Positions 58,387 to 64,000 of a DNA stretch of 64,000 nucleotides are shown here, piece by piece; positions within the stretch are counted from its first letter, which is position 1, and every line of letters begins with the position of its first letter. A model generated the notes under the pieces. That model had not been told where the DNA came from, ran no database searches, and saw nothing but the letters and a program-made list of their open reading frames with translations. Source of the stretch: Bacillota bacterium (GTDB taxonomy: Bacteria; Bacillota; SHA-98; UBA4971); assembly GCA_024653485.1 (NCBI GenBank), contig JANLFY010000003.1, positions 48,686 to 112,685 on the forward strand. Direction: 5' to 3'. The position numbers and the translations under genes are program-made.

Positions 58387-59172
58387 TTACCCCATCTCCC
58401 CGGCCTCGTACAGGACGATGGACGCGACCACGAGCCCCGCCGTCTCCGTCCTCAGTATCCTCGGACCGAGCCCACACGTCACTGCTCCCAACTCCACTGC
58501 CTGGGCGACTTCCTCTCTAGAAAACCCGCCCTCTGGCCCGATCAGGATCACTATGTCCCGGGCATGAGAACACCCCTTGACAACGTCGCGGATGCCCCTC
58601 GATCTCTCCAGCTCCCAGGGCATCAGCACAAGCCGACTACCGGGAGCACCTTCTCCCGACCCTGACATGGAAGCCGTCCGCCTGACGGCGTCTAGGAAGC
58701 TCTCTATGGCGAGGACGTCCGGCACGCGCTGCCTCCCGGACTGCCGTGAGGCCTCGCGAGCGATCCGCCTCCACCTCTCCAACCGCTTCGCGGCTCCCGC
58801 CTGGTCCGGCCGAGCCACTGTGCGCTCCGTGACCACCGGGACGAAGCGGCTGACCCCGATCTCAGTGTTCTTCCTGACGACTTCGTCCATCTTGTCCCCT
58901 TTGGGCAGCCCCTGGACGATGGTAATGAATACAGAGGGCTCGCGGCATACGTCGCTGCCCTCTGCCAAGACCACCAACACCTCATCGGCCCGGGCCGCCG
59001 CGATAAGCCCGCGGTGCTCGATCCCGGCCCCGTCAACAGCAGCGATCTCATCGCCGGGCCCGAGTCTCAGGACGCGGAGAATGTGGCGGGCGTCCTGGCC
59101 TGTTATTGCAACCGTGGATCCGGGTACGGCGACCCCCGGCACGAAGAACCTCGGACGTTCTCGGTCACGCAT
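58387..59172 (-). CDS. rsmE: 16S rRNA m3U1498 methyltransferase
   Basis: SPOUT-class methyltransferase. [16 protein letters not shown] starts the PUA-like domain; the knot has [16 protein letters not shown] and [20 protein letters not shown]. The start is set at the ATG at 59172 (261 residues), which overlaps dnaJ by 8 bp; the open frame to 59223 would overlap more. In many Firmicutes prmA lies between dnaJ and rsmE; here prmA is absent. Confidence 0.95.
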
Positions 59173-60316
59173 GGCGCTCCCAGGCGTCGCGGACCTTCTG
59201 GAAGAAGCCTCTTGGTTCGTCATCGGCTCTATTGCCGCCGCGCAGTTTGGAAAGCTCGCGGATGAGCTCTTTCTCTTTCTCCGTGAGCCTCGTGGGAGTC
59301 ACCACCCTCACCCTCACGTATTGGTCCCCGCGTGAACCGCCGCGCACGTCCGGAATACCCTTCCCCCGCAAGCGGAAGGCCGTGCCGGTCTGAGTCCCTT
59401 CAGGGACGCGGAGCGTGGCCCTGCCTTCGAGCGCGGGAACCTCCACCTCGTCACCGAGAGCTGCTTGCCAGATGCTTATGGGTATCTCGCACACTATGTC
59501 GTTGCCGTCTCGCTGGAATACCTCATGAGGCCTCACGGTTATGAACACGAACAGGTCGCCTGGCGGCCCGCCCCGTAGACCCGCTTCTCCCTCGCCTGCC
59601 ACCCGCACGCGCATCCCGGAGTCGACCCCTGCGGGGACTTTCACCCTTATCTTCTTGCGCTTGCGTACCCTGCCGCGTCCCTGGCACGCCGAGCACGGCG
59701 AATCGATCACCCTGCCTTCGCCTCCACACCGAGGGCACGTCGTGATGCTCGTGAACCTTCCGAACGCGGTGGTCCGCACCTGGGCTGTCTGGCCCCGGCC
59801 TCCACACACCGGACACGTGATGGGCGAGGTCCCGGGTTTGGCGCCGGTGCCGCCGCAAGTCGGGCAAGCCTCCAGCCGCACCACCTCGATGTCCCTCTCC
59901 AGACCGAAGGCGGCCTCCTCCAGGGAGATCTCGAGATCATATCGGAGGTCGGCACCTCTCTCCGGACCCGGTCTTGCGGCCCTCTGTGCGCCGAAACCGC
60001 CTCCGAAGAACATGTCGAAGATGCTGTCGAACGAGGTGCCGAAGTCTCCGAAATCCCAACCGCCCATGCCTCCACCCGGTCCTGCGCCTGCCCCATCCGC
60101 GGCATGGCCGAACTGGTCGTACTGACGGCGCTTTTCGGGGTCGGAGAGCACCTCGTACGCCTCGTTGATCTCCTTGAACTTCTCCTCAGCGGACGGATCC
60201 TCTTTGTTCATGTCTGGGTGGTACTTCCTCGCAAGCTTCCGGAAGGCCTTCTTGATCTCCTCCTGGCTTGCGTTCCTGTCCACACCCAAGACTTCATAGT
60301 AATCGCGCTTTGCCAA
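59165..60316 (-). CDS. dnaJ: DnaJ (Hsp40) chaperone
   Basis: Co-chaperone that delivers clients to DnaK and stimulates its ATPase. It has 383 residues: J-domain with [11 protein letters not shown] (HPD), a Gly-rich region, four CxxCxGxG-type zinc repeats ([32 protein letters not shown]) and the C-terminal substrate domains. It starts 46 bp after dnaK. Type I DnaJ, complete. Confidence 0.97.
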
Positions 60317-60362: not shown

Positions 60363-62246
60363 CTACTCGTCCTTGACCTCTTTGTACTCGGCGTCGATCA
60401 CGTCATCTCGCCCGCCAGACTTTGCCCGTGAAGACCCTTCGGGACCGCCGCTCGCCGCCCCCGTCGTGTCCCGGCCGCCAGCGCCGTCGCCTGCGGAGCC
60501 CGTCCCCGCCTGGGCACGGCTGTACATGGTGGTCGTCACTTCGTGGAGCGCTGCGAGAAGCTCATCCTTGCGTGCCTTGATGGCGGCGATGTCCTTTCCC
60601 GCCAGAGCGGAACGCAGGTCTTCTTTCGCCCTCTCGACCTTGCTCGCCTGATCGGCCGAGATCTTGTCCTTGTGCTCCTTGAGAGTCTTCTCACACGTGT
60701 ATACGAGCGAGTCGGCCTCGTTCCGGAGCTCCGCCTCTTCGCGCCTGCGCTTGTCTTCCTCGGCGTGCGACTCCGCCTCCTTGACCATCCGCTCGATGTC
60801 CTCGCGCGACACGCCGCTGGAAGAAGTGATGGTGATTTTCTGCTCCCTGCCCGTTCCCAGATCCTTGGCTGACACGTGGACGATGCCGTTCACGTCTATG
60901 TCGAAAGCCACCTCGATCTGTGGAACCCCTCGAGGCGCGGGAGGTATCCCCGTGAGCTGGAACTTGCCAAGGGACACGTTGTCGGCCGCCATGGGTCGCT
61001 CGCCCTGCAGCACGTTGATCTCCACGGTGGTCTGGTTGTCGGCCGCGGTCGAGAATATCTGTTTCTTGGTTGTTGGTATGGTGGTGTTGCGCTCGATCAG
61101 CTTCGTGAACACTCCTCCGAGCGTCTCGATGCCGAGGGAGAGCGGGGTGACGTCCAGGAGCAGCACGTCGTGCACTTCGCCCGCCAACACGCCCGCCTGA
61201 ATGGCCGCCCCCAGCGCCACGACCTCATCGGGGTTCACGCCCTTGTGAGGCTCCTTGCCGATGAGCTCCTTGATCGCCCTCTGAACCGCCGGCATTCTGG
61301 TCTGGCCGCCAACGAGGATGACCTTGTCAATGTCTTTCGGCTCGAGCCCCGCGTCCGCAAGAGCCCTCCGGGTCGGACCGAGAGTCTTCTCGACAAGGTC
61401 CTGCGTTAGCTCCTCGAGTTTTGCCCTGGTTAGCGTCATGTCGAGGTGGAGAGGCTGGCCGCTCGCGTCGGCCGCAATGAACGGCAGGTTGATACTGGCG
61501 GTTAGAAGACCCGACAGCTCTATCTTGGCCTTCTCTGCCGCCTCCGTGAGCCGCTGGAGGGCTACCCTGTCCTTGCGGAGATCGAGACCGTGTTGCTTCA
61601 TGAACTCGTCGGCCACGTAGTCCACGATCTTCCTGTCGAAGTCGTCCCCACCAAGAAGGTTGTTCCCCGAGGTGGCCTTCACTTCGAACACGCCATCCCC
61701 AAGCTCCAGAATGGATACGTCGAACGTGCCGCCGCCCAGGTCGAACACAAGGATCGTGTGGTCCTGGCCTTTGTCGAGCCCGTACGCCAGTGCGGCCGCG
61801 GTGGGCTCGTTGATGATCCGAAGGACCTCAAGACCCGCGATTCTCCCGGCATCCTTAGTCGCTTGGCGTTGAGCGTCCGTGAAGTACGCAGGCACTGTTA
61901 TGACGGCTTTCTCGATCCTCTCTCCGAGGTACGCCTCGGCGTCCTCCTTGAGCTTACGGAGGATCATCGCGGATACCTCTTGAGGGGTGTACTCTTTGTC
62001 GTCTATCTTCACCCTGTAGGTCGTGCCCATCTTCCTCTTGATAGACAGGATGGTCCTCTCAGGATTGACGACGGCCTGTCTCTTGGCCACCTGGCCAACC
62101 ATCCTCTCCCCTGTCTTGGAAAAGGCCACAGCCGAGGGAGTGAGCCTCGAACCTTCAGCGTTCGGGATCACCTTGGCCTCGCCGCCCTCCATCACGGCGA
62201 TGACTGAGTTGGTGGTTCCGAGGTCTATTCCTACCACTCGTGACAT
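60363..62246 (-). CDS. dnaK: DnaK (Hsp70) chaperone
   Basis: ATP-driven chaperone. It has 627 residues: [68 protein letters not shown] in the ATPase domain, and a substrate domain with [15 protein letters not shown]; it ends in a flexible Gly/Ser/Asp tail with [13 protein letters not shown]. The 146 bp between grpE and dnaK contain no gene I can identify. Confidence 0.98.
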
Positions 62247-62392: not shown

Positions 62393-63103
62393 CTAGGCCC
62401 GTTCGCCTTTCGCGTCGTCGTCATCTCCGCCCGCTACGCGAGCGTCCCGTCCTTCGCCCGCCTGTCCGGCGTCTCCCGCCTGGCCATCGCCCTCGGCCGG
62501 ACCCGTCCCGATCTCGGCCGCGGCGCCTTCTTGACCCTCCAGGGCGGGGCGGCACGCAACCGTGACAAGCGCCGGTCTCACGACCCGACGCTCTGACGCG
62601 TATCCCCGCTGAATCTCCTCGAGGACTGTGCCCTCTTCGGCCTCAACGGTAGCCACCCTCAAGACCGCCTCGTGCCTCATGGGGTCAAACTGCTCCCCCG
62701 CAGCAGGAATCGGCCTTATGCCCTGCCTGCTGAGAAACTCCAGAAACTTGCCCATGACTAGGTCCAGCCCTTGCGCTATGCTTTGGTCAGCCGCGCTGGT
62801 CTTAGCGTGTTTCACTGCCCGCTCCAGGCTATCGAGAGCGGGAAGCATGTCTCTCACCACGGACTCCACGACCGCGTCGCGGAGATCCGCCTGCTCCCGC
62901 GCGACACGCTTCTTGAAGTTCTCCAGGTCGGCCTGGGCCCGTTGCCAGCCCGCAAGGAACTTCTCTTTGAGCGCCGTCTCCTGTCGAAGCAAGTCCTCGA
63001 GGGCAGCCCCGTTCTCTCCCGTGTCGCACCCTCTCGCGGCTTCCTCCCCGCCTGTCGCGTCGTCGGGCTTGCGGCCCTCCGTCTCAAACGGCTCCCCGAT
63101 CAC
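62393..63103 (-). CDS. grpE: GrpE nucleotide exchange factor
   Basis: Exchanges nucleotide on DnaK. It has 236 residues: a long helix with LAGWQRAQADLENFKKRV and REQADLRDAVVESVVRDM, then MLPALDSLERAVKHA, and the beta domain with FDPMRHEAVLRV and RVVRPALVTVA. About 45 extra C-terminal residues are Gly, Asp, Ala, Glu-rich (EGDGQAGDAGQAGEGRD), which family members usually lack. It overlaps the chaperonin gene by 4 bp. Confidence 0.95.
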   Translation of the reverse strand: MIGEPFETEGRKPDDATGGEEAARGCDTGENGAALEDLLRQETALKEKFLAGWQRAQADLENFKKRVAREQADLRDAVVESVVRDMLPALDSLERAVKHAKTSAADQSIAQGLDLVMGKFLEFLSRQGIRPIPAAGEQFDPMRHEAVLRVATVEAEEGTVLEEIQRGYASERRVVRPALVTVACRPALEGQEGAAAEIGTGPAEGDGQAGDAGQAGEGRDARVAGGDDDDAKGERA

Positions 63104-64000
63104 ATCCCCGCCTCCTTCGCCTCACCCGACTGATCCTCTCTCTTTTTTACTATCCTGTCAATCCTGAGCACGGCCTCTCCTACTTCGGCCGCTGCTCTCA
63201 AGGCGTTGAGCTTCACTTGAGCAGGGTCGACCACCCCGAGGGACAACATGTCTGCTACTGCGCCTGTATCGCAGTCTACTGCGAGGCTGTCGTTCCCACT
63301 CGCCGCCTGAGCCGTTATGGCCTCCTCGACTTTCTCGAGGGGGTTGTACCCCGCGTTTTGTACGATTTGAGCGAGGGGGCGTTTCAGCGCAGCCAACACA
63401 CAATCCACTCCGTAGGCTGCCATGCCTTTCACCTCTCGCCTAACGGAGGCAAGAGACCTCGCCGCAGCGATCTCGGCAGCTCCGCCACCGGGGACGATCC
63501 CACCTCTTACCGCCGCCTGAACCGCGCACACGGCATCATGGGCTATCCGCTCACGCTCCTCCACTACGTCACTCGTGGAGGCACCCACGACCATCGTGGC
63601 CATCGGCCTCCCACGACCCCCGACTATTCTGACCTCCGAGACCCTCTCGTCCTCGAAGACTCTCTCTGCCGCCCCTAGGACCCTCTCCATCTCGCTTGAG
63701 GACCGGGCGATCCACGAGCGCTTCACCAGGCGAGCGCCTGTGTGCTCCGCAGCCCTTCGCAGGTCCCGCCACGACATCCGCGTGACGACGACGACTCCCG
63801 CGTCCACGAGCATGTCCTCTGCGATGTCGGCAAGGCCGCCACTTACGAGGATGACGTTGATTCCGCACTCTACGAGCTGCCTCAGATTGCGTTCGAACCC
63901 CTCTTTCAGGGAGAAGTGCTTCTCGATCCCCCGTTCTGTGGCGAGGGCGCCCTCATCTACCCGCTCCGGCTCGAGCGCGTCGTCCAGCGCAAGGATCCTG
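63100..64000 (-). CDS. Archaeal-like (group III) chaperonin, 5' end beyond window
   Basis: C-terminal 300 residues of a thermosome/CCT-type chaperonin, not GroEL. The apical region reads LVECGINVILVSGGLADIAE; then VSEVRIVGGRGRPMATMVV, the intermediate/equatorial motif GGIVPGGGAAEIAAARSL, YGVDCVLAALKRPLAQIVQN, and the C-terminal GAVADMLSLGVVDPAQVKLN with LRIDRIV. These correspond in order to group II motifs (for example the thermosome VAGGGA-E and TGEVADMLE-G--EP blocks). Genes of this kind embedded in dnaK operons are known from some Firmicutes and form single-ring-derived, lidless-GroES-type cages independent of GroES. The N-terminal ATP-binding part and promoter lie outside the window. Confidence 0.9.
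   Translation of the reverse strand, partial: RILALDDALEPERVDEGALATERGIEKHFSLKEGFERNLRQLVECGINVILVSGGLADIAEDMLVDAGVVVVTRMSWRDLRRAAEHTGARLVKRSWIARSSSEMERVLGAAERVFEDERVSEVRIVGGRGRPMATMVVGASTSDVVEERERIAHDAVCAVQAAVRGGIVPGGGAAEIAAARSLASVRREVKGMAAYGVDCVLAALKRPLAQIVQNAGYNPLEKVEEAITAQAASGNDSLAVDCDTGAVADMLSLGVVDPAQVKLNALRAAAEVGEAVLRIDRIVKKREDQSGEAKEAGM

Follow-up and report, generated by a model that had tools for sequence, protein, structure and literature searches.

A Group III chaperonin gene within the dnaK operon of a Bacillota bacterium

At one end of a 64,000-nucleotide stretch of a Bacillota bacterium genome (contig JANLFY010000003.1, positions 48,686 to 112,685; G000:C3:48686-112685), here called the window, a chaperonin gene adjoining the Hsp70 genes is cut by the edge. 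What kind of chaperonin does it encode, is it whole, and what might it do next to dnaK? The gene very probably encodes a complete Group III chaperonin, placed in an hrcA-grpE-dnaK-dnaJ string behind a perfect CIRCE box (controlling inverted repeat of chaperone expression). The predicted product is an ATP-driven double-ring chamber that a built-in lid, in place of GroES, would close. It is likely made under heat stress together with a DnaK system that would hand over clients. The assembly comprises 3.0 Mb in 41 contigs and is 98.93% complete.

Completeness and identity of the chaperonin

Within the window, the open reading frame runs on the minus strand from the edge to a TGA (63100-64000). As a first-pass annotation had read it, these last 900 bases code for the apical and intermediate parts and the C-terminal equatorial part of a chaperonin, corresponding to residues 222-520. 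The adjoining DNA removed the doubt over a gene cut by the window edge. The full gene (L005:6786-8348, minus strand; 63100-64662 in window numbering, with 662 bases past the window) has a TTG start, 520 amino acids and 0 internal stops. The expected N-terminal ATP-binding motifs, GPKG, NDG and GDGTTT, are all found in the part beyond the window, and nothing is frameshifted or missing. Pfam Cpn60_TCP1 (PF00118) matches residues 29-508 with 349 bits (cut-off 34.3).

Functional sites and lid limits were mapped from the Carboxydothermus hydrogenoformans protein (Ch-CPN), as given in PMC5635000. Residues were compared between 15 rows of the organism's own genus (some genomes twice) and 118 further rows from Group III (in which two genomes appear twice); alignment A3 omits row L121. 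The features of the gene inside the window are:

63100..64000, minus strand: Group III chaperonin gene, residues 222-520, continuing to 64662 outside the window (open reading frame, PF00118, clade placement)
63865..63987, minus strand: built-in lid, residues 226-266, Ch-CPN 223-263 (alignment on Ch-CPN numbering; limits from PMC5635000)
63925-63927, minus strand: lid-tip Ile246 (Phe at this site in 114/118 other Group III rows)
63916-63918, minus strand: lid-tip His249 (Tyr or Phe at this site in 109/118 other Group III rows)
63535..63537, minus strand: catalytic Asp376, Ch-CPN Asp373 (alignment)
63337..63339, minus strand: Leu442, ball of the inter-ring ball-and-socket joint, Ch-CPN Leu439 (alignment)

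In a quick tree, Group III formed one clade (Shimodaira-Hasegawa-like approximate likelihood ratio test, SH-aLRT, 99, as the sole branch support) with the window protein inside it and apart from GroEL and thermosomes; the Group II sample was mostly Thermoplasma relatives, and the tool warned that long branches join groups I and II. The sisters of the protein within the clade were members of its own class. The closest solved structures, both by sequence and by fold, agreed with this placement. Group I membership found no echo in the protein either, as it stands outside the GroEL clade and has a lid, and groES is not adjacent to its gene, lying on contig C9.

The gamma-phosphate contact Arg157 (Ch-CPN Arg155) is Arg in 118/118 other Group III rows, and the catalytic Asp58 (Asp56) and Asp376 (Asp373) are kept together with GDGTTT. 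The sites kept are, in Ch-CPN numbering, Asn55, Asp56, Gly57, Asp87, Thr89, Thr91, Arg155, Asp373, Val111, Met411, Tyr414, Leu439, Leu237 and Phe253. They include the ball-and-socket residues (Leu442, Val113, Met414 and Tyr417 in the window protein) and half of the lid-tip set: Leu240 and Phe256 are retained (Leu237, Phe253), and Ile246 and His249 differ (Phe243, Tyr246). The equivalent of Lys109 is Asp111.

The protein resembles thermosomes overall, and its best NCBIfam models are thermosome models that stay below cut-off (thermosome_beta, 278 vs 400 bits). This would suit an archaeal Group II thermosome that was recently acquired by this lineage and works by thermosome allostery, but the protein lies inside Group III beside sisters of its own class. 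Where the four thermosomes shown in the alignment have the nucleotide-sensing loop, this protein and Ch-CPN have a common six-column gap. Its lid is four residues shorter than theirs, and of 123 carrier genomes surveyed, 120 have a homologue flanked by hrcA and grpE. We regard such an acquisition as extremely improbable. Judged from its sequence, the gene is an intact Group III chaperonin; such proteins are already known, and this one is ordinary and well documented.

The dnaK operon, its signals and its distribution

The order of the locus is CIRCE, hrcA, hairpin, chaperonin, grpE, dnaK, dnaJ, with the chaperonin, grpE, dnaK and dnaJ all on the minus strand. The gene expected before the chaperonin, hrcA, was found directly upstream (TIGR00331, 339 bits, cut-off 197), with 99 bases between. 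At the other end, the chaperonin ATG TGA overlaps the grpE start GTG ATC by 4 bases, in ATGTGATC. Sequence and gene order thus bore out the proposed coupling to grpE-dnaK-dnaJ, and by these two signs the chaperonin is encoded within the dnaK operon. The neighbouring features are:

63100..63103, minus strand: stop/start overlap GTGA of chaperonin and grpE (sequence)
62393..63103, minus strand: grpE, nucleotide exchange factor, 236 amino acids, GTG start (GrpE models, best 124 bits, below their cut-offs)
60363..62246, minus strand: dnaK, Hsp70, 627 amino acids (open reading frame and model match)
59165..60316, minus strand: dnaJ, 383 amino acids (open reading frame and model match)
64694-64716 in window numbering, just outside the window (L005 8380-8402), minus strand: hairpin GGGGTTAAG-N4..10-CTTAGCCCC directly after hrcA (sequence)

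The minus strand prevails in the window as a whole, with 42 of 45 non-overlapping open reading frames (at least 200 codons, longest first), a strong bias for 64 kb.

Before hrcA lie a perfect CIRCE box, TTAGCACTC-N9-GAGTGCTAA, and a promoter-like TTGACA-18-TATCTT (1 found vs 0.4 expected). A second perfect CIRCE precedes groES in the same genome, which holds one GroEL and groES pair on contig C9, this groES being the only one. An Rfam search of the stretch from promoter to chaperonin gave a phage hairpin as its sole match, far under the gathering score. It is already published that Group III genes lie in the dnaK operon ("with one exception") and that HrcA controls both chaperonin systems (PMC5635000, PMC5220055; PMC5904260 citing Techtmann and Robb 2010).

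By analogy with CIRCE and HrcA biology, HrcA would release CIRCE on protein stress, and both chaperonin systems would be derepressed at once, along with DnaK. Clients could then pass from DnaK to the Group III chaperonin, as proposed in PMC5635000 and PMC5220055. By likeness to the solved Carboxydothermus protein (PMC5635000), the chamber would consist of two stacked rings of eight, and the lid would close on ATP binding via a stem loop and a C-terminal lever, with Leu442 as the pivot. The earlier suggestion of a GroES-independent chamber in addition to Hsp70 holds in part: homology points to a built-in lid, but the complete groES-groEL pair means that Hsp70 is not the only other system.

The post-hrcA hairpin is the sole exact match in its own genome. 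Across the class it follows hrcA whatever the next gene is. It precedes the chaperonin in 6/6 genomes of the own genus (g1) and in G002 exactly and in G001 with 2 mismatches, grpE in 2/2 genomes of family f3, and dnaJ in six genomes of the sister genus g2, where five copies are exact and the sixth has 1 mismatch. At up to 3 mismatches, none of the other 114 loci has it between hrcA and the chaperonin. Among 12 distinct rows (G001 excluded), a 9-pair core including a U-G pair was invariant; of the outer pairs, two vary on both sides yet are paired in 12/12, and a third is unpaired in 9. In Bacillus, the dnaK-operon mRNA is processed after hrcA. Our guess is that the hairpin may be an RNA-processing or stabilising element.

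How widespread is this arrangement? Of 398 genomes sampled evenly across the phylum, 126, about one third, gave a Group III copy with a 24-row Group III profile (E <= 1e-80), as did 84 of 266 genera, so that the "limited set of Firmicutes" of the first-pass annotation understates the spread. GroES was present in 124 of the 126 carriers. It was absent in 9 of the 398 genomes, two of them carriers (G267, 63% complete; G325, 94% complete, ~210 contigs), and unfinished assemblies can yield such absences. G325, with its chaperonin on contig C127, had no GroES match and no first-look candidate, perhaps through a gap in the assembly; no search for GroEL was made in either of the two carriers.

Genomic context was surveyed at 125 loci, representing 123 of the 126 carriers (G309, G376 and G126 left out; G001 and G002 seen twice). 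The order hrcA, chaperonin, grpE was found in the 120 genomes mentioned above, and L032 stops at a contig edge upstream. Gaps between hrcA and chaperonin ranged from -22 to 335 bases. CIRCE was located upstream in 89/89 loci holding at least 2.5 kb there, exactly in 88. A constant association with dnaK was rejected on two counterexamples, G287 (L034) and G241 (L081), which have hrcA-chaperonin-dnaJ with no grpE or dnaK alongside and dnaK on another contig. Also rejected was the idea that their DnaK (66% and 60% identity, respectively) is unlike that of the window, as L009, with DnaK in place, is also at 66%. Together, these surveys put numbers on how widely Group III genes occur and on the genes that surround them.

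In the class (17 genomes), Group III was present in 6/6 genomes of the own genus, 0/7 of g2, 2/2 of family f2 and 0/2 of f3. The 8 carriers had two PF00118 chaperonin matches, and the other 9 had one, at a GroEL-like score; g2 thus retains GroEL and has no Group III copy. hrcA was found in 6/7 g2 genomes, with dnaJ directly after it in 6/6 (L053-L058). Three tested g2 DnaK proteins were 61-63% identical to that of the window, compared with 77% for f2 and 81-87% for f3, though these are more distant by rank. Chaperonin, grpE and dnaK are therefore absent from this place in g2, and the three genomes tested use an unlike DnaK; the g2 DnaK looks exchanged. The g2 assembly G011 had no full DnaK match. 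The own genus and g2 lend themselves to a comparison of what a Group III chaperonin contributes beyond GroEL.

Thermophily, suggested earlier as a reason for the gene, found no support. An IVYWREL temperature of ~65 C from 45 open reading frames of the window looked supportive, but IVYWREL, charged-minus-polar and (E+K)/(Q+H) showed no difference between 19 carriers and 19 non-carriers, a comparison of low power (20 stretches of at most 20 kb per group, one each dropped for fewer than 1000 residues). By eye, g1 did not stand out from g2, f2 and f3 in these proxies. With no 16S gene found in its own assembly, the 16S route to thermophily is closed.

Evolutionary rate and residue changes in the genus

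Compared with five congeners, the chaperonin had 76.6-83.0% identity, nonsynonymous divergence (dN) of 0.097-0.145 and dN/dS of 0.077-0.100, at a synonymous divergence (dS) of 1.1-1.7, which is near saturation. GroEL of the same genomes had 95.4-97.0% identity and dN of 0.015-0.022. DnaK (dN 0.036-0.074) and HrcA (0.067-0.115) fell between the two, and GrpE was faster than the chaperonin (0.163-0.263). From these values, the chaperonin is under purifying selection and maintained, yet evolves ~6-8 times faster than GroEL.

Such a rate, the 0/7 copies in the sister genus and the changes at conserved lid and inter-ring sites described below might be read as a decaying or dispensable copy, in a genus that has GroEL and is losing its Group III gene. 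Yet the gene is intact in all six own-genus genomes with dN/dS of at most 0.10, and catalytic residues and grpE coupling are kept. Decay is accordingly very unlikely, and an intact, maintained Group III chaperonin is the reading that we retain.

The sites changed in the own genus are given here in Ch-CPN numbering. Phe243 is replaced by Ile or Leu and Tyr246 by His in 15/15 own-genus rows, and Lys109 by Asp, Glu or Gly (Lys or Arg in 116/118 other rows). Glu102 has become Ala (Glu in 86/118, a site that is variable anyway), the adenine-contact Ile152 is Thr in 14/15 rows (Ile or Val in 114/118), Thr500 is Arg (Thr in 105/118), Ala492 is Gly (Ala in 113/118), and Val58 is Cys or Trp (Val in 100/118), Cys also occurring in both sister-family genomes. 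At 14 mapped sites, the own-genus residues occur in at most 4/118 other rows. They include the lid-tip sites 243 and 246, site 109 of the socket and the ion pair, site 58, which follows catalytic Asp56 by two positions, site 362 at a contact between subunits (Asp in place of Glu), and site 500 at the C-terminal end. Since both Lys109 and Glu102 are changed, the closed-state inter-ring ion pair between them cannot form in the own genus.

Several observations weigh against the preferred reading. No NCBIfam model passed its cut-off. Leu237, Phe243, Tyr246 and Phe253 are termed strictly conserved in PMC5635000, and two of these four are changed here; with the ion pair also lost, the mechanism of the Carboxydothermus protein may apply only in part. 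Nor does the chaperonin have to be linked to dnaK, because G287 and G241 keep hrcA-chaperonin-dnaJ with dnaK elsewhere.

The lid-tip quartet is not strictly defining for Group III, because other rows deviate too (not Phe at 243 in 4/118, not Tyr at 246 in 18/118). On a FastTree tree of 133 rows, Phe243 was lost in 5 changes, the aromatic residue at 246 in 7 and the basic residue at 109 in 2, so the own genus is not alone in its lid-tip losses; Glu102 was also lost in other Group III lineages (8 changes).

A specialised variant, in which lid tip, inter-ring contact and sites within or close to the ATP-signalling sheet were re-tuned in the genus so that client docking or ring coupling differs from Carboxydothermus, is a tentative possibility. 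It would fit the 14 sites above, under selection that is still purifying. However, the changes at 243, 246, 109 and 102 recur elsewhere on the tree, the substitutions may have built up neutrally along a long stem branch (0.43), and counting 500 as part of the C-terminal lever is our own reading of PMC5635000. In its full form, it is doubtful that the own-genus protein is a re-wired machine with a swapped lid-tip pair, a lost Lys109-Glu102 bond and changes next to each half of the ATP-signalling sheet (58, 500). Such re-wiring would alter the surface on which clients or DnaK dock and would couple the rings more loosely than in Carboxydothermus. We infer these effects from the residues.

A different change was seen outside the genus. 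In 11/118 other Group III rows (L042, L064, L088, L098, L105, L111, L118, L122, L124, L127 and L132), Asp56 is Ala, in NAGVTI or SAGVTI, while Asp373 and Arg155 stay (2 changes on the FastTree tree). These proteins are possibly naturally slow-hydrolysing chaperonins, and they offer a direct way to test what ATP hydrolysis does in Group III.

Comparison with known chaperonins

The archaeal thermosome (Group II) has its fold and built-in lid in common with the window protein and forms a separate clade; its nucleotide-sensing loop of six residues is missing here, and its lid is longer by four residues. ACIII (PDB 9rwq; PMC12696368) is a resurrected Group III ancestor, reconstructed and not an organism's gene.

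Ch-CPN (PDB 5x9u, 5x9v) is ~42% identical to the window protein over the aligned model. As described in PMC5635000, it has the domain plan of the window protein: the two are alike in domain arrangement, no nucleotide-sensing loop and a short lid. They also agree in Arg155, Asp56, Asp373, GDGTTT, the Leu439 ball, the Val111/Met411/Tyr414 socket and the dnaK-operon placement described for the family. The window protein differs in having Ile for Phe243, His for Tyr246, Asp for Lys109, Ala for Glu102, Thr for Ile152 and Arg for Thr500. The Group III proteins of Ammonifex degensii, Thermincola, Pelotomaculum and Thermosinus (P0011, P0016, P0028 and P0050) are 58-61% identical over the full length. 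These four keep GF.RY at the lid tip, whereas the nine aligned proteins of the own genus read G[IL][EN][RK]H.
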